Origin: Ceratothoa steindachneri
Lineage: Eukaryota > Arthropoda > Malacostraca > Isopoda > Cymothoidae
Reading direction: 5' to 3'
NCBI GenBank assembly: GCA_963969495.1
Contig: OZ018338.1
Location: 45,763,206-45,827,205 of the forward strand
Length of the DNA stretch: 64,000 bases
This document shows positions 2,721-64,000 of this stretch, piece by piece. Below the pieces are notes generated by a model. The model did not search any database, was not told where the DNA came from, and was given only the letters and a program-made list of their open reading frames with translations. The translations under genes and the position numbers were made by a program. The stretch's first letter is position 1. The number at the start of each line of letters is the position of its first letter.

Positions 2721-4592
2721 CCTCTTCTTTAACTTCGGAAGTATTCTGTCTCAGATTCCATTGATTTGAGAGGTTGAGGAGCGTTATAGAGATATATTTC
2801 TTCGTCAAACTTCGGAACGGTCTGAGGGAGAGTTCTCCCTGATGGGGATGATAAAGGTGGGAGAAGAGTAGAGGCGGAAGGCATTCTGAGGCCTAAAGAT
2901 GCTTCCTAACTTCCCCCCTCCCTAATATAACCATAAACTACTCCAGTCCGTGCCCGATCGTTAACAAAGAGCGTGCCCAGATAGGGATGATGGGGTATCC
3001 CATCAAGAGGTTAGATTCTACTTTGTTATGCGATCTCAAGATTTTTTTAAAATTTAATTTGCATATTTGAGGTAAATAAAATATCACAAAAAATAACATG
3101 ATTTATTTATCGATGACTGGAATAAATATCAGATAAAAAGCAAGAAAAAGATCATTACCCGATTTCCTCCTTGTCGCCAAAAAAAATAATCAAAATGTGA
3201 TTGGAAAGTCTTGTTTTTAGTATTCGAATTTTGGAATCCAACCATGTTCTTCCAATAGCCTGAATATGATTTCCAGTAGTTGAGTCCTAATAATTTAGTT
3301 AATGATTAACTGCTTGGTGAATGTAATTTACACGATTTAAGTCTGAGTATGCGCGCCATTTATCTGAGTGAATGACTGAATTTTCCTCAACTTCTCTCTG
3401 AATTTTGGGTATTAGCGTTGCTCAATTTCTCTTCTTTACATAAAAATGTCTGCAGTCATCACCTTTCTTCAGACTGAACACCCATATAGCGTTAATACTT
3501 CTTCCATGGTTTCGGTTGTTTTACATTTTGGCCTCACTGTAAGTTGAATTTGGTGCCTGATTTCCCTACAGCATCCGTCCACGATTATATTCCCGACGTC
3601 CAGCAAAACTAGCTTCATCTACTCGTATTAAAACTAGGTCTTCTGCAATATAAAGCATTTCCCAAGATTTCTTACAGAAACTATTTGTGAGTAAATTTCC
3701 CGACATAAATTAAACCAATCAAAAATAGCTTATGTGCCTCGACCAGTCATTCCTGTACCAATTCATATGGCGAATCTTGAATGAAATACAAAATAATTAA
3801 CTCCAAAAATTCGACTAAGTTTTAGTTTGCCATTCGTTATACCATTTAAATCAGTGAAATGGAAAAATAAGTTTCCTGAGCGAATAGAATGATAAGTTTT
3901 GCATTTTCTATTCTTACAAAGCAGAGCTGGAATGAATTCCCCTTTTCTTTTTCTTATTCGTATATCTTGCATTTCTTCACCTCAACGAAGACAAGGTGCA
4001 ACGTCTTCTGCGTCATCCAATAGACCATTTCTTCTGAAAAAAGCAACTGCTTTCATTTCCTCAGCAATTTCTCAAAGTGTCCAGGAAAGCGACTCATTTA
4101 CATGCAGAAAATGTCTGGTTTAAATACATGATTGGGATCACAAATATAATGCAGTATCATATATACTAAGATAAGGGTGGTATAAATTGTACATATATAC
4201 TATCTATGGTAATAAAAGTATTATAACGCATTGGTAATTAAGATAAGGGTGGTATAAATTTTACCATTAGGCGAGATCACAATTATCAAGTGAGATTGCA
4301 TACCAAAGTATCACCAATGGTGCAAAAGGCTGCAATCTTAACACTTCTGGGCACTTTTACCTCACTCATTTCTTCGCAATTATCTTCATACTTTCTGATT
4401 GAGTTTCACATGTTGGTTTACCTTTTTTAGTTATAAGTTTGACAATAAAATATGATGACGGTTTATAATTCTGCTATGAAGTCAGGATCAAATGTCAATT
4501 TAACAAATTTACTTAAATCTGGTCATAAAATCACGCCCTTTGACTGCATTTCCTTTCCCGAACCCGAAGTTTAATAGGCCAGGAACTTTAGA
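2721..4592. other. unassigned AT-rich spacer
   Basis: No gene recognised. The open frames at 3763-3972 (-) and 3899-4123 (+) overlap on opposite strands and carry no motif. The only structure seen is the short direct repeat listed separately. Confidence 0.45.
4168..4260. repeat. 21-bp direct repeat, two copies
   Basis: The same 21-base string (beginning AAGATAAGGGTGG) occurs at 4168-4188 and again at 4240-4260, separated by AT-rich sequence. Nothing links it to a gene. Confidence 0.7.
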
Positions 4593-4972
4593 GTTTTGAA
4601 GTGCAATAATTAGATAAAAGATGAAACTTGGCACAAGTATAGGGATTTGTGAGCTGAAAAACATATCAAAAGTCCCATGGACTCCTGCGCTTGCGTTAGC
4701 CGCCATATTAGAATTCCCTTAAAATTCAAATATCTTGTAAAATAATAGTTTAATCGAAGATCATCACTCAATAAAAGTTGTTCAGAACTGATTTTTTCAT
4801 AGCACTTACTAGGTTAATTTACAAATATAAGTATATTTATATGGACAAGAATTGAAGTAATAAGTACATTTTCAAAGATAATTTCCACAGAACTGGTGGG
4901 CCTGTATGACAAAATGCTTTGAAACAAAGGTTGTAGAGCAAGTTTTCTTCTTTTGGAATATATATATACAGG
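4593..4972 (+). repeat. Left terminal inverted repeat
   Basis: Read as reverse complement, the right arm matches this stretch in several blocks: 4601-4734 (including GCTTGCGTTAGCCGCCATAT), 4786-4805, and 4800-4940 (including ACAGAACTGGTGG and GCCTGTATGACAAA). Similarity trails off in a short TA run near 4972. The outermost bases (GTTTTGAAGTGCAAT versus GTTTTAGTGCAAT) differ by an indel. Confidence 0.85.
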
Positions 4973-5065
4973 TTTATGCATATTTAAAAACTAAGGAAGT
5001 TAAGAGGCATAAATGGAGAAAAACGCAAGACACTGACCGATGTTATCTTCTTCCAGGTACCAAAA

Positions 5066-8000
5066 ATGATGGATTGTCTGATATGTGGGCTTGCCTTGAA
5101 TGAATTTCCAAGTATAGATGTGACTCGGGGATCGCAGACCTTGATAACCGCCAGTCTGGCCCGAGAGGATGGGTTGCATGAACAGTTAAAGAAGAAAACT
5201 TCTTTACAAGTACATATCAACTGCCGTAAATCGTACACTCGAAGACCTGCTTCAAATAAGTGCATAGAGGAGCCACACAAGAAAGTGCCTTGTCTGCGAT
5301 CAGAAGTAACCGAATTTGACATAAAATTGCATTGCTTATTATGTGTTGAAACAGCTGATAAAACTGTAGAGCTTAAAAATCCAAAGAACTATCGTAGGTC
5401 CATACATGAAGTTACGACACTAACACTACAAGAAACAGTGTGGGCAAGAGCAAAGGAACGCAATGATAAACTTGGTTATTTGGTAATAAGCAAAATTAAC
5501 AGTGTTATTGACCTAGTAGCTGCAAAGTCTAAGTATCATCGGAAGTGTTTCAATGATTTCTGCAAAACTAGCTGTGATAGTGGTGCATCCTATTCTTATA
5601 AAACTGTTGGAAGACCATGCCAGGAAGGTGCAGCAAAAGCTTTCAATGATTGTGTGACACAACATAGACGACAAGAATGAGTGCCAGTACTCACTGCAGG
5701 AAATGCACAGGGTGATGATGGAGGCTGCAGACATAACCGAGACTGTATACATAGTTAGGACACTGAAACAAAAACTGCTAGACAAATATGGCGAAAGCAT
5801 CGCTGTCAGTAAATCTAAAGGCAATGATATTGCTTCATTCAATGAAGCAGTCAGTAGATCCTTAGCAGACCCATGGTATAAAAACAGAGAAAGCAATATT
5901 CAAGATGAGAGACGTCGAATTGTAATAACAGCTGCCGCTATCATACGTGAAGATATACGTGTACGTGTGTATGACAATTCCGTGTATCCAGTATGTGAAG
6001 ATATTCCCACTTCCTCAATAAAGCATGTGCCAGACACTCTCCGTGACTTTTCTAAGGAAATAACAAAATCCAAGTGTAGGGACTAACATAAGGAAAATGA
6101 GCAAAAGCGCTTAAGCATACAGCATGCAATCGTATCTGCACCACGACCGAGGTCATTCTTGTCTTCACTCCAGATATCTTTATCTGTTTTTCTACATAGG
6201 CGCTTTGCTTCTCGCCATCTAATTGATATTCTAAAGAAGGTAGGAGTAGCAGCGTCATATAAAGAGACTCTACGCTGCATTAACTCAGTATGTAGTGAGG
6301 ACTGCATCTGTCAATATAAGAGAAGATGGTTTTCTCCAATATATATTTGATAATGCAGATTTCAACATTCGCATTCTTGATGGATTGGGAACGTTTCACA
6401 GTATGGGTGGTGTAAAATGTGTAACTCCTACCAGTGCAGTATTAACTAGTACTGCAGTCCAGAGAGTCGTAGATGTAAGTAGTTCAAGTAACGTTGGAGG
6501 AACAATTCCAATAAAGAGATATAAAAAACCTACAAGCATGTCAAGTCTGCAAAATATCCCAGAGAGGCATCTATCTCATGCGATACATATCAACCAGTAA
6601 CTGCAAAACATGCTCAACAGTTAGATACCTTATGGATATGTGGAAGATACTTAAGTACCAGCAAAACCCCAGGCTGGACCGGCTACATACAGGTAGCAAT
6701 GAAAGGTGGTAACTTTGAAACTACTCATATACTTTCACTTCCCTTCATCAACTTGGACCCATGGAATCTATCAACTATATACACAGCACTCAATGTGTGG
6801 TTACTTTTGACCAGCCCCTCAATATGAAAGCATTTGAACTAGTTGTTTGGGTGGTTTCCATCTCCTCATGTCCTTTATGGGAGCAATATGCACCATAATG
6901 CGTAAAAGTGGACTGGAAGAATTGTGGGTAACAAAGGAAACAAAGCATCATTAGCAACTAAGTTGGAGTCTTATGGACCTTGAAAAGGGTTAGTTTCAGA
7001 TGAATACCAGTATGTTGTGGATAGTGGTCATCTCCTTCATAAAGTTGTGTGGCCAAGGCCAGCTGTGTCGCGGAATATCTTTCAAGCCTACATAGCTTTT
7101 GTATTCAGTCATTATGGCAAAAATGCAACAGTTGTGTTTGACGGCTACCCAGTAACACAAATGAGCAAATATCAGGAACAAAATCGTAGGGCATCCAAAC
7201 ATTGATCTATAGAAGTTGTAGTTAAAGAAGAATGCTACACAACCTTCCCACATGCAGATTTCGTGTGTTATAAGCGTAACAAGACACAGCTGATCAATAA
7301 ACTGAAGGAACACCTGCAGTCTCCTGGTATTACAGTTATAGTTGCCAAGTATGATGCAGATACGTCCCTTGTCCAAACTGCTTGGTCATTACAAAATACT
7401 GGACATAATGTAGTAGTAGTGGGTGACGACACAAACTTGCTTGTACTTCTAAGTCATCTAAAAAAATAGTTTTCATTAAACCTGGTAAAGCCCACAATCC
7501 CAACAAGGCCCAGGATATTAGCAAACTTCAAGCTAACATGGGACATCTTCGGCAACATCTGCTGTTCCACCACGCAGTTACAGGGTACGACACAACATCA
7601 GCTATATATGGGAAAGGGGAAAAAAGCCTATTTGATACCCTGAAGAATAGCCAAGACATGTGCCACACAGTATTTGTATTTGATAACCCAGAAACATCTA
7701 AAAATGAAGTGGCCAAAGCTGGTGAAGCTTTCCTCCTCCATGCTGTGTATGGAACTGAAAAAACGCAAACATTGGATAAGTATCGCTTTTATGCATACAA
7801 GAGAACAGTAGCAAAAATGTCACCTAAATCTCAGTTTCAGCTATCTATATTGCCACCAACATGTGATGCAGCTTGTTTTCACTCGTTTAGGGTGTTCTTC
7901 CAAGTGCAATGTTAGCATGGTAACCATCTCTCTCCAGTAGAATAGGGATGGGAGAGTTGCAGAACCGAACTGAAACCAATCCCTTCAATCAAACCTCCAG

Positions 8001-8170
8001 CTCCAGATGACCTGTTACATTTAGTCAACTGTAACTGTCGCAAAGGTTGCCGCCATCAATGTGAATGTCGGAGGGCTGGTTTATCGTGCTCATCCATGTG
8101 TGGCCAGTGCCGTGGTGCTAGATGTAAAAATTCACTACCATTCGAGAAAGATGCTGAAGAGAGAGACTGA
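5066..8170 (+). pseudogene. Broken gene: zinc modules, PIN/FEN1-like domain, CXC domain
   Basis: Fragments in successive frames read as one protein of roughly 1000 residues. 5066-5680: two CxxC...HxxC modules (CLICG...INCRK, then CLLCV...HRKCF) suggest zinc binding. 5703-6350 and 6295-6600: a conserved middle region (FLQYIFDNADFN, FHSMGGVKC). 7009-7470: VVDSGHLLH, VVFDGYP, YDADT and VVVGDDTNLLVLL have the spaced acidic residues of PIN/FEN1-type nucleases. 7538-7915: YDTTSAIYGKG follows. 7988-8170: CNCRKGCRHQCEC plus further cysteines form a Tesmin/TSO1-like CXC domain ending in TGA. At least four frameshifts and several in-frame stops (for example 6084-6086) break it. A pyrimidine tract ending in CAG lies just before the first ATG, so an upstream exon is possible. 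The gene fills the space between the TIRs and is probably element cargo; a nuclease or DNA-binding role is inference. Confidence 0.7.
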
Positions 8171-8754
8171 GATGAAAAAAAAATTGATTTTGAAGCATGT
8201 GTATGTGCTCTGAGTGTGTGATGTTCTAACTTTAATTACTTTCATGAGTAGCCTTTATGACATACATATTGCACAAACATTTAAAGCAAACCTGCTGCCA
8301 TCTTTCTTGTGTTTGACGTTTATGTTTGTATTAATGAACAAATAATAATTTCTCACTTATCTCAGTTAAAAGATTTTTCCTTTGTAGTTTATGTTGTTGT
8401 ATATGTAAGTATAACAAAACGGTATGTATTATAATTCGTACAAAAGATATTTGTCCGACAAAGCTCATGAATATAAAGCTCATGCTTTTTCAGTCATCCT
8501 GTTTTATTCTGAAGAAAAAAGGTTATTTGCACGAGTTCCTTTCACTGTCATTTCCAATTTCATTATTAAGAAAAGAATAATGATGTTTATAAAGACACTA
8601 CTGTTCAGTAATTTATAGAATGTTCGCAAGTTAAGGCTATCTTTATATTTTCAAAAAAAGTACTGTTTGATTTGGTATGTGTGACAATTTGCCATAGTGG
8701 CTTTCTGTTTATTTTTCCTCATAACTTCCCTATCTTTTAGAAATATGTATAGAA

Positions 8755-9967
8755 TTGTATATATATTTTCTTTACAACATTTGTTTCAAAGCAGTTTGTC
8801 ATACAGGCCACCAGTTCTGTAGGAATTGTCTTTGAAAATAAACTTATTACTTCAATTTCAATATTTTTAATTTTCCATATAAATTTACTACTTTGTAAAA
8901 TAACCTAGTCAGTGCTATTGTGGTGGAGCGAATGTGAGTGTGTGAAAAAGGGCCATTCTCCCACCCCTTTTCTCAGTACCCTCTCCCTCCCTCTGTAAGA
9001 ATGTGTGTGAATGGGAATGGGTTTGTTTTATTTTTGTTTATTTTATGTATAAAATGATTACCATGTTTTTCTTTCTTTCCAGGCGTCATATTCTGGAAAG
9101 ATAGTAGCAAGTTTTGAGATATCACTATAATTAAAAGAATATTGTACTTTGCTTAAAATCAACTTTTATCAAAGCGTCATATTCTGGAAAGAGGTAAGCT
9201 AGTCGATAAATTTACTCGGGTAATGCCCACTTATTAGTTTCGCCATCCATGTATAAATAAATAGGTCATAAAAGGAGGATATATCTCTTCTACAGAGAGT
9301 GGAAGTGTGGACTGACAGCAAGAGGGGTTCTCTAGACGAGTGCTCCGCCCAGCCCTGAGACGGAGGGCTTTCGTGCCTCGCTAACCACCTGAACCGCCAT
9401 ACCCGCCTTCGTTGACAATCCTGCCTCCTTCTAAGTTAGCCTACTACCACCCACCTCCAGCACACAAGTGATAGCGCGTGCCCCTTTTTTTTCGTTCGGT
9501 TGTTGTTGTATTTTTATGTTTTGTGTAGATATATAAGTAAATTTGTTGTATTCGCCTTTTATAAAATTCTCTGTTGGTATCGTATTTGGATTGGGGAATC
9601 CAGCCTCATTTTGAAGTGTGCACACTTCCCTTGTAAATATAAATTGCAATAAATATAACTGTAACTATCATTGTACTTTTTTTTGTAAGTAAAGGGACTG
9701 TATATACAATTAGTTTCATTCTCCCTCGATTTCTCACGTCCGGACAGTGTAGGAAGCGGGTTGGATCGATTATCGATTGGGATTAGAGATATATTTTCGA
9801 CCCGCTACACTATGAAACAATCAGTTTCCTTTGAATTTTAAGGGAATTCCAATATGGCGGCTAACGCAAGCGCGGAAGTCCATGGGTCTTTTGATATGTT
9901 GTTCAAGTCACAAATCCCTATACCTGTGCCAAGTTTCAGTTTTTATCTAATTATTGCACTAAAACCC
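8755..9967 (-). repeat. Right terminal inverted repeat, interrupted
   Basis: The inner part (about 8755-8918) and the outer part (9814-9967) are the inverted counterpart of 4593-4972. The solo LTR at 8919-9809 sits between them; the left arm is continuous through the matching point (near 4795), which shows that the LTR came later. Confidence 0.8.
8919..9809 (+). mobile_element. Solo LTR with 4-bp target duplication (CTAT)
   Basis: The 891-bp insert begins TGTGGTGGAGCG and ends CCCGCTACA, the TG...CA termini of long terminal repeats. It is flanked by the same 4 bases, CTAT, at 8915-8918 and 9810-9813, as many Ty3/gypsy integrases leave. A TATA-like run (GTATAAATAAATAGG) lies near 9250 and an AATAAA-type signal near 9646, placing promoter and polyadenylation signal in the order expected on the + strand. 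No second LTR or internal coding sequence is present, so recombination between two LTRs probably left this solo copy. The ORF at 9431-9649 (-) inside it has no motif. Confidence 0.8.
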
Positions 9968-12839
9968 TATATTTTTCCCTAACGTGAATAACCGAAAGGA
10001 GTCGGTCTCCTGCGGATAGGTCAAACAGCCAATTGTTTCGATTTTTATCTAGGTTTTGGCTCGCTTCATAAATCGATACAAAGAAACCTTTTGTCTCTGA
10101 ATTGGGTTGGATAGGGGGAACTGACCCATAAACTCTCCAGTGCGCTTCGTAAAAAAGGATAAGGTTGTCTGACCAGGGAAGCTTGGCGCCCATCAGTTTT
10201 GCTCCTGAGCGCGCAATCCGCAATGAGTGGCGTTGATGCACGCCAACCTGTAGGAGGAACCGTTTATGGTCAACATTTCTGTAGTTTTTAGTATTACTCA
10301 CATGAGTTTGACTTAGCACTAAAGCTGGTAAATTCCATTGATTTATTTTTTTTTTTTTTTTTCGTTACTTTCCAGCAATTTTAAAAGATTTTCATAACCT
10401 GTGCTAACTTCGATTCCGAGAGAAGTCATTTTCCTATCTTTTACCCTCTAGAGTCGGGGAGGAAATTCCAGTAGATCTTCCTTTATGAAATTAAAAAAGG
10501 AGCTAGGTGGGCTCTCTAGTCAAAATCAAATCAAATTTAATACGCAAGATTATTATATTTTAAAGAGGAGAAACGGGTTAGAGCTAGACTAATTAAATGA
10601 GCACGTTTAAACTTCGAAATTAAAATTAATCCTCTTTCCCCGAAGACTTATTATTATTTTGAATATCTATTGATTCTGACCTACTCAATAAAATATTTTA
10701 CCATATAAGTAATTTTCTTCTGTTGAAGCTTAGGTTCAATTGCCACCTCCCTCGTTTCGCTATGAAGGCTATTGAGTGCGCATTTCGGGATCAAGAATTT
10801 GCGAAAAAATATTGCAGCAAATCTGACCACCCAATAGTGTTAGTCATTTCGCCATTGAAACAGAACCGGGAGAATGTGCAGCATGGATAAATCAAGTGAG
10901 TTACTATTTATTTTTATCATCTTAGCTCGAGGCTGAGATGATCGAACAGTACTCACTAACCATTGAAAATGAATATAATACCAGGGACACAACAAACGTC
11001 TATGTAAAGGTTCGAACCTATACTGCTATCACAGCAGACGTCAAAAATCATAGTTTTTGCCCCACAGTTCATAAATTGCAGGCAGGGACACTGAATCGCG
11101 CGTCTTTGCTATAGTGTTTCATGGTAACAATATAATTGAGTGGTTCAACGACGAGCCTTCAAAGTGAGGTGATGGTGCAGCAGGTTTGCGAGAAGAGGAG
11201 CGAGTTTATTGATGAAGCGAGTACCACATGGCTTTAAGCTCACAGGCGGGAGCTTCGGCCTCAAATCTTACTTGAACAATACCTTAACTCTTTCCGTTTA
11301 TTGGCATTGAGCAATGATTTCAGGGATACTTTTGGTCATAGTGTTGATATTTATTTACCTACGAGATAAAAGATAATTCAAATGAGTTTATCTGATAAGT
11401 TATTTAGATTTTAGCTATTACTTTATTTAATATTACTGATTGCAATATAAAAGTAGAATAAACCACTCCGTTTCCTTCTCCAATTTCCCCGCGCTGAATT
11501 TAAAGGATTCGGTTAATTTTCCAACTTTTGTAATCAGCTTATTCCTTAATCCTCATCAGGAATCGTTTTGCCTTCATTTTCCAGCATTCTTATGCTTTGT
11601 TGAGGCAAGTTATGGGAACAATTTTTAAATAATATTGCGCACATCTCCTTTTATTTCTCTTTTGACTATTCTGCATCTATGAGAAGATAGTAAATAAACT
11701 TTAATAATGAGGTAAAATAATTTTTCTTACAAGATATAAAAATAGCGCCATTGAGTGGTCAAAAATAATTCAGAAATTTTAAAAATAACATAAAAATAGA
11801 AGAATCTTATTATTTAAATAATAACGATTAAATTTCGAATAAAAAGGTGCGAAGCAATTAAAAAAAATGCTTAGATATGTTATCATTAAGGAAGAAACAG
11901 CCGTACTAGTGATATAGGATTCTTCCTGCACCCTAACCTAGCACCTAGCACCGACCGAACTGGTCAGAGAGATGAAATCAATCAAAATATTTATTTTATC
12001 TACAAGTTTAAAGCTGAATCTTCGTTGTTGAAAACTTTATTAAAATACTCATTTCATGTCTTTACCACGTAGTGCCATGTTCATTTAGCTGCCTTTGGCA
12101 TCCTCAAACGGCTTGGTGCACACTCTAATTGGCGTATGATTGTTTACATATCTATAAAATTGCTTAGTTCGTGTCTTGGCAACGACACTTAGTTCCTTTT
12201 CCTCTTCTTATTTTTCTTTTGGCAAAGTAACGGTAATCGTGGTATCGGTTTCCATTCTTGCTAGTATTTGAAATTTTATACATTCGCTTAGATTTCCCTT
12301 GTGCGCTTTTTAAACCATGGGGCCTCTAGATCTATAGGTCACAATTTTGTTATTTTTAGTGAAATATAAACCTTAATAAAAATTATTATACATTGCCAGG
12401 TCGTTTTCAAAGTTAAATATTTAATCCTAATATAAAATAATTAAATTCTTTAAAGTTCGCGAGAGGATGAAAGCTGTTCTAAACATTTTTAAATGAAATT
12501 ATGTTCGGATTTGTCTACCGGTGTTTCACCAAAATGCATATACTTTACACTAACTTTTCTTCATTTGTCAAAATTAAACCAAGGAAGAAGATTCCACGTC
12601 TCTTTCTGTCTATATTAGATGAAGGAAGTTAGCATTTATTTAGTCTGGAAGTCATTTTCCTGCATTGTCCACCGTTTCATTTAGAAAATATACATTCTGA
12701 AAATTACAGTCAGTGCATATTACCCTTACTTTTTGTCTAATTAAGGCGCAAAGTTTCGAATTAAATAACGTGTTGGTAAATAGGAATACATAGGCATTTA
12801 AGCAATTAGGGAACGCTTGTATTCTCTCCTATTACAGTT
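9968..12839. other. unassigned spacer
   Basis: I see no supported gene. A 122-codon leftward frame (9951-10319) has no recognisable domain and overlaps the transposon end. A T-run occurs at about 10347-10363. The rest is AT-rich with scattered stops in all frames. Confidence 0.45.
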
Positions 12840-36525: not shown

Positions 36526-36704
36526 TCACGACCTCTACCTCAAGGAGGTCAAAAGAATCATCCTCCCTCCCCCAAACACAAGTTTGGGTTCAACCGAAGC
36601 CCATCTAAGAGCAACAAAGGCTTCATAGAAGTGCAGACGCCGAGCAAGTACAGGTCATATTCACCGCGAGAGAAAAAAACGTAAAGCCCCCGTTACTCCG
36701 CTCC

Positions 36705-37079
36705 ATGTCTAGCAACTACCCCCGCATACCAATTGTATGCTTTACGTGTGGCACCCCTAGGCACTTAAGTTACAAGTGCCCCCGCCCAAATTCTCAACTG
36801 AGGACCTCGTCGAGTCACCAGGTCCACCAAATCTCTCCTGCCCTTTTGCCTAATCCGCTAGCAGCATCGCCAGCGGACCCTGCTCCCTCTCTCCCGGATC
36901 AACAGGTGAATTTCCTGTTTAACAGGAGTTCCAACGGTAGGCTCCATTTTGAAAATGGCGCAGTAAATGGTTACCGAGTGCCAACCATCGTTATAGATAT
37001 AGGTTCCACCTGTACCACAGGTTCCAAGTGGTACGGTGCCATATTAAGTCTCAGTACTTCAACAGTTTGGCCGACGTAG
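36705..37079 (+). pseudogene. gag C-terminus / protease start of the gypsy element
   Basis: The 124-codon frame holds one nucleocapsid-type knuckle CFTCGTPRHLSYKC (CX2CX4HX4C, about residues 12-25), a proline/serine-rich linker, and then VNGYRVPTIVIDIGSTCT (about residues 85-102). That last string matches the start of retroelement aspartic proteases, with D-I-G-S in the active-site position usually D-S/T-G. Gag packages element RNA; the protease cuts the polyprotein. It ends in a stop after about 20 more residues, so protease is truncated. Confidence 0.7.
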
Positions 37080-37399
37080 TAAAGCCCCGATGAAATTCTG
37101 CTCCGTCCTCAATGGACAGAGCGCATAGCTCTCATAAAACCTAATTTCTCAGCCGAGTGTTACCAGGGCCCAGGCTGAGAAGGATGTACCACTTCCGGTA
37201 CCCCTATCATCCCCAGACATTGACCTCGCCACTAATGTTCAAGGTGCTGAGGTGCAGAAGGATTGCCCCCATTACAATCCCTGTGGGCAAGAGAAAGGAA
37301 GAAGGAGACTGAAATGGTGCGAGGTGATCGGAAGATCGAATACACCACGCGTTAGTATACCGTTCTTTTGTTGAGCCGGAGAGCCCCTCGGCCAACGAT

Positions 37400-37700
37400 T
37401 TGTGTGTGCCGAGAATAAATATCAAACCCGTTCTAAAGATGGCTCAAAATAATCTAATGGACGGACATTTCGGCCATGACAGAATAGCACAGCGAATTTT
37501 TAAATATTTCTTTTGGCCAGGAATGGCCAAAGAAATTATCGACGTCTGCAAGTCCTTTAAGGTCACCTCCAAAGGGCGTGTACGCTCTTGCCCCCCTTCA
37601 AAAGATCCCGAGAGTGCCCTCGCCTCTCGCCCGGGTCTCAATCGGCCTAATATGCCTAATTCTTTCCCCGTCAAGCAAAGGACACATCTACCCCGTTGAA
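37400..37700 (+). pseudogene. Integrase N-terminal zinc domain remnant
   Basis: The frame 37400-37699 reads GHFGHDRIAQRIF, YFFWPGMAKEI and IDVCKSF, the HHCC zinc-binding domain of Ty3/gypsy integrases (H-x3-H ... C-x2-C), but the last cysteine has become phenylalanine. After a shift, 37578-37690 reads PLQKIPRVPSPLARVSIGL and SSKGH, which resembles the start of the integrase catalytic core (VSIDLIGPLP-type). The DDE residues are missing. It sits upstream of the RT/RNase H remnants, which is the copia-like order. Confidence 0.65.
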
Positions 37701-37739
37701 ACCGAGTGTGTGATCCAAACGGTGTGTGTAGAAGCAGAC

Positions 37740-38287
37740 GATAACTATTCCCAGCCGAATTCCGACTTGAACGTAAACCCCAATCTCGCCCCTAATGAGA
37801 GGGCTCAACTCCTTGCCTTATCAAAAGGCTTTCCCGTGTCATTATATCGTCATTTTGGGCAGAATTTCGCTCTCATAGCCGAGCCCCTTAACGACATGCT
37901 TAAAAGAACGGCCTATGTCCCAGTCAATTGGACCCCTCCCGCGGAAGCTCGCTTCCACCAGTTAAAGGACAAGTTAATCTCTGCCCCTATCTTAAGATTA
38001 CAGAATCCTAATAAAATATTAGGTGTTCGTACCAAGGCCTCCCAGGATGATTAGGTTGTGCTCTTGTCCAATATGATGACGATGGAGTGGGATATCCTAT
38101 AGGATATGCTAACAGGAAGCTGTCCCATAGCGAAAAGGCGTATGTCATCAAAGAGCTTGAAGCGTTAGCCATAGTGTAATCTATTCGTAAGTTTAGGATG
38201 TATGTTGAAGGCACCGACAACTGTCTAGTCGATAGCTTGAGTAGGAATCCTATAGAAGACCCTCCGTCCAACAACCTGAGTGTATAG
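37740..38287 (+). pseudogene. RT linker, RT end and RNase H remnant of the gypsy element
   Basis: The frame to 38054 carries a pre-RT linker (ERAQLLALSKGFPVS), then RHFGQNFALIAEPLNDMLKR and FHQLKDKLISAPILRL, the thumb/connection after the RT palm, then TKASQDD where gypsy RNase H normally has TDAS. After a frameshift near 38055 the next frame gives GCALVQYDDDG, GYANRKLSHSEKAY and IKELEALAIV, then a stop, then VDSLSRNPIEDPP to the stop at 38285-38287. The RT palm with YxDD is deleted, and much of RNase H too. No integrase follows before LTR2. Confidence 0.7.
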
Positions 38288-62185: not shown

Positions 62186-64000
62186 GAATTCAACCACATT
62201 CTCTGAAGACAATTTAATTCAGAACAGTTTCGGTGTATCTCACACCCTTTTTCAACTGACACTGGATAGAAAATATTAGAAAAGTGCTTACAAACATAAC
62301 ACGGGGTCAGGTCGTGAAAGATCCCCCCTTTTTTCCCCCAATCCCCTACTTGTGGCTAATCAGGGGGGGGGGGGGTTAGGCCTAAACATATTAAAGGGCT
62401 GAACTTTTACTAGTTTGTTTATTTGCTTTCGTATTACAGGATTAAAAGAAAATTGACCTTCAGATAGATTTAAATTAGGAACTGACGATATCAAGCTCGA
62501 TTCTACGATTCTTCTCTTAACATAGTTAGCCGATTTAAATACCATTTTACTTCCATTGAAATCGATCGAATGGCCCAAGTTTCTAACATGGCAAAATATT
62601 CCACTGCTTTGGCTGCTCACTCTAATATTTCTTTTGTGTTCGTACAATCTCTTGTCTAGATTTCTCCCCGTTTTCCCTATATAAACTTTATGGCAATCGT
62701 TGCATGGTATTGCATATACTCCTATGTTATGATGTTCTTTGGGTTTTCTGGCAATCATCAATTAGTTTAAGAAGTTATTATATTTAAAGGCTAGATTAAT
62801 ACCCGCTTTTCCAAATATGTCCTTTACACTATTTAATTTTTTTTTAAATGGCAATGTTATACATTTGTTGAAGTCATTAATGCGGGAAGGCTTATTAACA
62901 TAGAATGTTTTCCTAGCTGCAAAATGGGCAAACGATATGAACCAATCGGGGTAATACAAATTAGAAAAATGGTCCTGATAATGACAATTTCCTCATCTAA
63001 ATAGGAAGGATGACATATCTTATATGCTCTAAGGAAAAGGTTAGAAATTACCGATTTTTTAACAGTATTATCGTGAAACGAAAAATAATGTATATAGGCA
63101 TTCGAGTGGGTTGGTTTCCTATACACGTCAAGTTTTAATTCATCGTGATCTTTAGTAATGAGGACATCTAAAAAGGGAAATCTATTATCATATTCCCATT
63201 CATATTTAAATTTGATGGAGACATGCAAATTATTCAAATTATTAAAAAAGTTATCAAAATCATGGCCATTAGGCCATACAGAAAATACATCGTCAATGTA
63301 TCTTAACCATATAAAGTTAAAGGGAGAAATTGTGATAAGAAGTTCAGTCTCAAAATATTCCCTGAAGAAACATGCCAATATCGGAGATAAGCTATTTCCC
63401 ATGCTAAGGCCAAATATTTGTCTATAAAACTCATTATTTACTCGAAACACATTGGCAGAGAGACATAATTCAACTAAATCGATAAATTTACTCGTAGAAA
63501 TGGGAAGATCCAAATTAAGTCTAGGCATGATTTCCCGCAGAAGGCCCATGGTTTGGTCAACCGGAACTTTGGTAAACAAAGAGTTTACATCAAAGCTCAC
63601 AAGTTTTCCATCCGATAATTGCAAGTGGTTGAGGCGATCAACGAAATCTTGAGTGTTCATAATGTGTGCAGATGAGATTCTTCCAACTGCTGGAGATAAA
63701 TGCTTGGCGAGCCATTTGAAGAGCTTATAAATGGGAGAATTAATATTGCAAATGATTGGACGTAAGGGACATCCCTCTTTGTGGGTCTTTGGGAGCTCAT
63801 ACATATAAGGAAGTGAAGGGTTCGTACTCCTGAATTGTTTGATTAAATCTGCCAAGCAAGAAAGCGTGATCGTATTAGCCAAAGCGATTTGCACAGGAGG
63901 AAACGTTTAGAGCCCATCAATGTCGTCACCCAGAAACTGGGCAAAAAGATCTGGTCCACTTTAACGAATCGTGTCATTCCAGAACTGCAGGGAACAGGCG
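62142..64000 (-). mobile_element. Penelope-like element 3, continuing past the window edge
   Basis: Minus-strand PLE with RT, connector and GIY-YIG domains (62360-63905) and a 3' untranslated region to the (AT)n tract at 62142-62182. The untranslated part shares GAACAGTTTCGGTGTATCTC and a run of G (62364-62375) with the tails at 47031-47670. The region 63906-64000 may hold its upstream part or a neighbouring copy, since PLEs often sit in partial tandem. Confidence 0.85.
62360..63905 (-). pseudogene. PLE reverse transcriptase and GIY-YIG endonuclease
   Basis: From 63894 down, 345 codons hold the RT: ELPKTHKEGCPLRPI, then motif A SFDVNSLFTKVP (about residues 100-111), motif B SMGNSLSPILACFF (164-177) and motif C RYIDDVF (198-204), followed by FPFLDVLI and the connector VYRKPTHSNAYIHYFSFHD. 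All catalytic aspartates are kept. A one-base shift near 62980 passes the reading to 62762-62959 (FAARKTFYVNKPSRI), ending in a TAA at 62762-62764. The next frame, in phase, begins directly after it with IARKPKEHHNIGVYAIPCNDC and KVYIGKTGRNLDKRLYEH, the GIY-YIG core with its CxxC, to a G-run-derived proline tail. A stop lies just upstream (63906-63908), so the N-terminus is broken too. It is the best preserved RT in the window. Confidence 0.85.

Follow-up and report, generated by a model that had tools for sequence, protein, structure and literature searches.

A decayed isopod DNA transposon, probably of the AcademX lineage, whose protein relatives join a predicted DDE core to a FEN1-type nuclease

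We analyzed a 64,000-nucleotide stretch of the genome of the isopod Ceratothoa steindachneri (assembly GCA_963969495.1, contig OZ018338.1, positions 45,763,206 to 45,827,205; hereafter the window) and found a decayed copy of a transposon family with inverted arms, constant ends and target-site duplications (TSDs) of 3–4 bp, in which a gene is linked to those ends. Relatives of the encoded protein carry, within one chain, a predicted RNase H-like DDE core and a predicted nuclease of the FEN1/EXO1/XPG type, and the catalytic acids of both are conserved. By its features the family is very probably a cut-and-paste DNA transposon of the Academ superfamily and is filed in its nuclease-bearing lineage AcademX. 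The first-pass annotation, made from the letters of the window alone, had described a DNA transposon without a visible DDE transposase, in which a PIN-type nuclease might act as the cutting enzyme.

Recurrence of the ends and the gene

A piece of the terminal inverted repeat (TIR), 4601–4734, was used as query against the 3.93-Gb assembly. The search gave 40 scored places among 133 first-look candidates; two were the window's own arms, and the other 38 were retrieved as 32 loci. Sibling termini were called by the motif TAGCCCAGGA with at most two mismatches, the motif being derived from these same copies. Both arms were found in 15 of the 32 loci and both termini in 13. Exact TSDs flanked nine of the 13 two-terminus copies, eight of 3 bp (TGG, TTA, ATT, AAA, ATA, CAA, TAT and AAA) and one of 4 bp (TTTA), the chance expectation for a 3-bp match being 1/64. 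No TSD was seen in the other four (L016, L028, L029 with L030, and L031 with L032). This is the recurrence with constant ends and fixed-length duplications that the first-pass annotation had suggested looking for.

The gene was present, at least in part, at 28 of the 32 further TIR loci and lay between the arms in 14 of the 15 two-ended ones, and the DDE and nuclease stretches were each covered to at least 0.7 in 12 of these 15. Because the arms recur, 28 loci hold the gene and nine copies have TSDs, the gene is the transposon's own, in line with the first-pass proposal that this gene family belongs to the element. One 978-bp copy (L014, 275–1252, G000:C13) is bounded by the 4-bp TSD TTTA and lacks the gene; since both termini are kept, we regard it as a non-autonomous derivative of the family. 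In the gene-less loci L018, L033 and L038, a single arm lay within the stretch retrieved. Seven of the two-terminus copies were 5192–5768 bp long, while the remaining six were shorter or longer. None of the ten siblings examined is intact, as no open frame exceeded 396 residues. The catalytic acids in 20 loci mostly kept the ancestral residue where covered. Comparison of whole arms, some of them poorly aligned, gave an arm-to-arm identity within a copy of 63–93% (median 83%, 15 loci), which indicates that the family is not young.

Predicted folds and conserved acids of the protein

Reading through the broken gene of the window copy, with X at the joints, gave a protein of 1040 residues, and a search with its residues 520–1020 returned 381 homologues at E ≤ 1e-3. 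Among the best 120 of the 381, many were about 1430–1520 residues long, and those with a named source came from insects, one soft coral and one bacterial metagenome-assembled genome (MAG). The parts of the window protein follow the same order as in 22 aligned relatives, minus one stretch. Across 55 aligned relatives, the three DDE acids were kept in 54 or 55, and the acids of the nuclease were just as conserved.

When a whole relative was submitted to Foldseek, the nuclease alone appeared in 50 rows, and the DDE part was therefore folded separately. In the model of P0127, the DDE core is predicted to be RNase H-like, and a helical insertion precedes its last acid. Foldseek returned no row at E ≤ 0.001 for this part, the top row being a tRNA synthetase; transposases surfaced by VIA-align only, with P element, Transib/RAG1 and Hermes (hAT) rows of 6–10% identity among the best 15. 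The nuclease fold was of the FEN1/EXO1/XPG type; its 14 best rows in the structural search were 12–13% identical to EXO1, and we take its seven acids to correspond to those of FEN1 by number. A PDB sequence search with query A4 placed EXO1 first at E 0.007 and designed proteins next at 0.05, and query A1 retrieved a chance row only. The PIN-type domain noticed at first is thus real and of the FEN1/EXO1/XPG type, and the suggested check of a relative for a hidden RNase H-like fold was positive in the predicted structure. The remark that no DDE transposase was visible holds for the window copy, whose triad is incomplete, but not for the relatives, in which the core is predicted. It is invisible in the window because this copy lost the glutamate-bearing part.

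Pfam gave no trusted match for the window pieces or for the joined protein. Among relatives, the Pfam family DUF6589 matched part of the DDE region weakly (residues about 590–810), namely in three of six proteins, all under the curated cut-off, and in eight of 22 at E ≤ 0.1 (best 2.8e-06); it is precomputed on eight of the best 120 homologues. No paper on DUF6589 was found in a literature search, and the family may be a transposase core too. For two C-terminal pieces, no Pfam CXC (TCR) family was listed at E ≤ 10, and the cluster is called CXC in two database names ("Tesmin/TSO1-like CXC", P0100 and P0117). Scans of viral-contig and genome-contig collections with query A1 yielded no relatives.

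Because public animal predictions list members as uncharacterised or under odd names, a family name should help annotation. Four Frankliniella fusca entries that match the transposase family, named tyrosine-tRNA ligase (P0173), histone methyltransferase EZ1 (P0074), glycerophosphodiester phosphodiesterase (P0072) and lin-54-like (P0049), are likely mis-named or fused gene models. Another member, P0118, lies on a contig of 5569 bp assigned to a bacterial MAG (Sedimenticola) and is probably animal DNA in that bin. Relatives lying on contigs of about 5 kb were dropped as evidence for a repeat unit, since a gene of 4.4 kb selects such contigs anyway.

The window copy and its surroundings

The features of the window copy are collected in Table 1. 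The family terminus is TAGCCCAGGA, beyond which the flanks differ between copies, and the window's left end at 4575 reads TAGGCCAGGA. Position 4575 is the first base of the motif as set in siblings L009, L017, L024 and L028; this end is defined by the motif and the differing flanks, the query of the sibling comparison having itself begun at 4575. The right end, near 9988, was placed by the TSD and by a sibling alignment reaching 9984. As the neighbouring right terminus is degraded, the element's own TSD, TAA, is probable and not proven.

Table 1 Features of the decayed element in the window
Feature	Position	Strand	Basis or remark
Whole element, decayed copy	4575..9988	+	Terminus motif, differing flanks, sibling alignment
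Left TIR, about 436 bp	4575..5010	+	Repeat search, blastn, arm alignment
Right TIR, inner part	8736..8918	-	Repeat search, blastn, arm alignment
Right TIR, outer part	9814..9988	-	Repeat search, arm and sibling alignment
Probable TSD copy TAA, left	4572..4574	.	Sequence; 3 bp is the size in 8 of 13 two-terminus siblings
Probable TSD copy TAA, right	9989..9991	.	Sequence; neighbouring right terminus degraded
Transposase gene, disrupted by several frameshifts, stops and a single internal deletion	5066..8170	+	
Two N-terminal Cys/His modules (CxxC...HxxCRKxYTR; CxxC...YHxxC)	5075..5560	+	Alignment with relatives
DDE first aspartate (FDNAD)	6349..6351	+	Codon GAT; D aligned in 54 of 55 relatives, the other having a gap; first strand of model
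DDE second aspartate (VTFDQPL)	6809..6811	+	Codon GAC; D in 55 of 55 relatives; after model strand 241-245
Internal-deletion junction, about 1.12-1.16 kb gone	6933..6934	+	Window against siblings; protein alignment
FEN1/EXO1/XPG-type nuclease domain	6945..7912	+	Acid positions 7020, 7140, 7353, 7359, 7428, 7434 (here N), 7589
CXC-like cysteine cluster, nine cysteines	8030..8131	+	Cysteines conserved in 52-54 of 55 relatives
Solo-LTR-like element, 891 bp, TG...CA, in right arm	8919..9809	.	CTAT at 8915-8918 and 9810-9813

An 891-bp element sits within the right arm and is, from its sequence, most simply a solo long terminal repeat (LTR). Sibling L009 lacks it at the same site (window 8918 aligns with L009 5800, and window 9830 with L009 5872), and it is thus a later insertion; blastn found no second copy within the window. 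A repeat search paired 4582–4730 with 9830–9978 (149 nt, 88% complementary) and, further inward, 4850–4899 with 8808–8857 and 4899–4941 with 8767–8809 (90–91% complementary), and blastn matched the arms at E 4e-45 and 2e-37. With the LTR-like element removed, the alignment of the arms (input stretch 4560–5080) reached about position 5010 in the left arm and had 404 gap-free columns, of which 317 were identical; about 50 bp of the left arm had no counterpart in the right. The inverted arms reported at first are therefore real, but the size of about 300 bp was an understatement, as they measure about 436 bp on the left and about 358 bp on the right.

Between them lies the single broken gene that the first-pass annotation had described, with its paired zinc modules and a CXC-like cysteine cluster. 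The motifs quoted for it (VVDSGHLLH, VVFDGYP and GDDTNLLVLL) are genuine: the checked codons place aspartates at 7020 in VVDSG, at 7140 in VVFDGYP and, as the aligned residue, at 7428 in GDDTNLL. Six of the seven FEN1-type acids are unchanged in this copy, and one has changed from D to N. The deletion at 6934 took the DDE glutamate together with the helical insertion; its size is about 1141 bp by comparison with L009, 1154 bp with L010, 1120 bp with L024 and about 1163 bp with L017. Neither this deletion nor the two remaining DDE aspartates had been noted in the first-pass annotation. With the glutamate lost, frameshifts and stops in the gene and the LTR-like insertion in one arm, the window copy is dead.

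Elsewhere in the window, a 349-residue open frame on the minus strand (62857–63906) reads like a Penelope-type reverse transcriptase, with no Pfam match at E ≤ 0.01. Remnants of Gypsy type occupy 36609–38054 on the plus strand, comprising an apparent zinc-knuckle frame and another that matches RT_RNaseH_2 below threshold (E 8.3e-06). Rfam had no match in the window at gathering thresholds.

Mechanism, alternatives and comparison with known systems

The reconstructed chain would comprise Cys/His modules, an RNase H-like DDE core with helical insertion, a FEN1/EXO1/XPG-type nuclease and a CXC-like cluster. The zinc modules and the cysteine cluster probably bind DNA, be it the ends or the target. 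Judging from its fold and from the TSDs, the DDE core is probably what cleaves and joins the transferred strand, with a stagger of 3–4 bp at the target, and the nuclease may trim or cut the other strand or a flap, either as an accessory after integration or excision or in second-strand cutting. Both sets of acids matter, since they are equally conserved, although conservation does not tell which step each serves. A strict division, in which the DDE core handles the transferred strand only and the FEN1-type center makes the other cut at each end or removes the flap that staggered cutting leaves, and helps to set the short TSD length, can be put forward tentatively and is rather doubtful. It would recall Tn7, where TnsA and TnsB share the labour of cutting, but the likeness lies in the division of labour and the enzymes are unrelated. 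What emerges is a model open to experiment, an AcademX-type protein with two predicted catalytic centers, conserved acids in each, in one chain, and with it the question why a transposase carries a flap-endonuclease-like enzyme.

The CXC domain of LIN54 recognizes TTYGAA, and we counted this motif in the TIR consensus of 47 arms. It occurred five times (a palindromic site accounts for two of these), compared with 1.06 times on average in shuffles, with as many in 12 of 1000 shuffles; the looser TTYRAA occurred ten times against a mean of 3.5, with as many in 21 of 1000. This excess was set aside as support because the count was post hoc, the shuffle was simple and the tyrosine of LIN54 is absent from the aligned cluster. 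The sites could be protein-binding sites or chance.

The first-pass idea of a new transposition chemistry, with the PIN/FEN1 nuclease cutting in place of a DDE transposase, draws on a nuclease that is real, on acids whose conservation equals that of the DDE acids, and on a window copy without a complete triad. In the relatives, however, the same chain has a predicted DDE core with D, D and E conserved in 54–55 of 55 proteins, and comparison with the siblings shows that the part missing from the window copy was deleted. A DDE-free chemistry is hence unnecessary and very improbable, and a false lead is removed. From a single copy one might also have suspected a captured cargo gene, or a host gene that happened to lie between inverted repeats unrelated to it, and such proteins do appear in databases as uncharacterised predictions from hosts; the same gene between the arms of nearly all two-ended loci refutes this, and we give it virtually no weight.

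Two other placements of the family were considered. Membership of the P superfamily, with an acquired nuclease, is hardly credible: P elements make 8-bp TSDs as against 3–4 bp here, no THAP or GTP-binding family was among the Pfam matches, and the structural match had an identity of 10%. A DDE plus XPG superfamily distinct from the named Academ is somewhat easier to entertain, though unlikely, given that Academ was compared by features and not by sequence and that only DUF6589, of unknown function, recurs in Pfam, at the weak level given above. Against this separate status, the nuclease, the DDE/D core, the TSD size and the element length all coincide with the descriptions of Academ and AcademX.

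Academ is the assignment that we prefer. Academ and AcademX reportedly go back to Kapitonov and Jurka and to Kojima, and the AcademX nuclease is of XPG type. A nuclease-encoding DDE/D lineage with 3–4 bp TSDs has already been published as AcademX, TSDs of 3 or 4 bp in AcademX and of 9 or 10 bp in AcademH being tied to the encoded nuclease or helicase, respectively (PMC10045372). Academ is counted as a DDE/D superfamily, and its curated elements in bivalves average 5565 bp (PMC10294476); the length range of seven of our 13 two-terminus copies is close to this value. The present family thus resembles AcademX in its DDE/D core (from predicted structure only), its encoded nuclease and its TSDs, whereas its CXC-like cluster and its P/Transib-like helical insertion are absent from the excerpts consulted. 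It shares the superfamily with the sister lineage AcademH but neither of that lineage's features: the nine Pfam families that 22 relatives match at E ≤ 0.1 include no helicase, and the TSDs of nine of 13 copies are 3–4 bp and not 9–10 bp. The same Pfam matches contained no family of the KDZ group, which the first-pass annotation had mentioned, and no direct comparison with a KDZ profile or structure was made. A literature search yielded, among the matches listed, neither a paper combining Academ and XPG nor one on the present family, and the available sections of PMC9143410 and PMC10799480 do not treat the AcademX protein.

Beyond Academ, the family resembles the P element, Transib/RAG1 and Hermes (hAT) transposases in its predicted core, which is RNase H-like and has a helical insertion ahead of the final acid. 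None of these three is known to carry a FEN1-type domain. With the FEN1, EXO1 and XPG nucleases, the family shares the fold and the seven acids, the difference being that here the nuclease is fused to a transposase within a mobile element.

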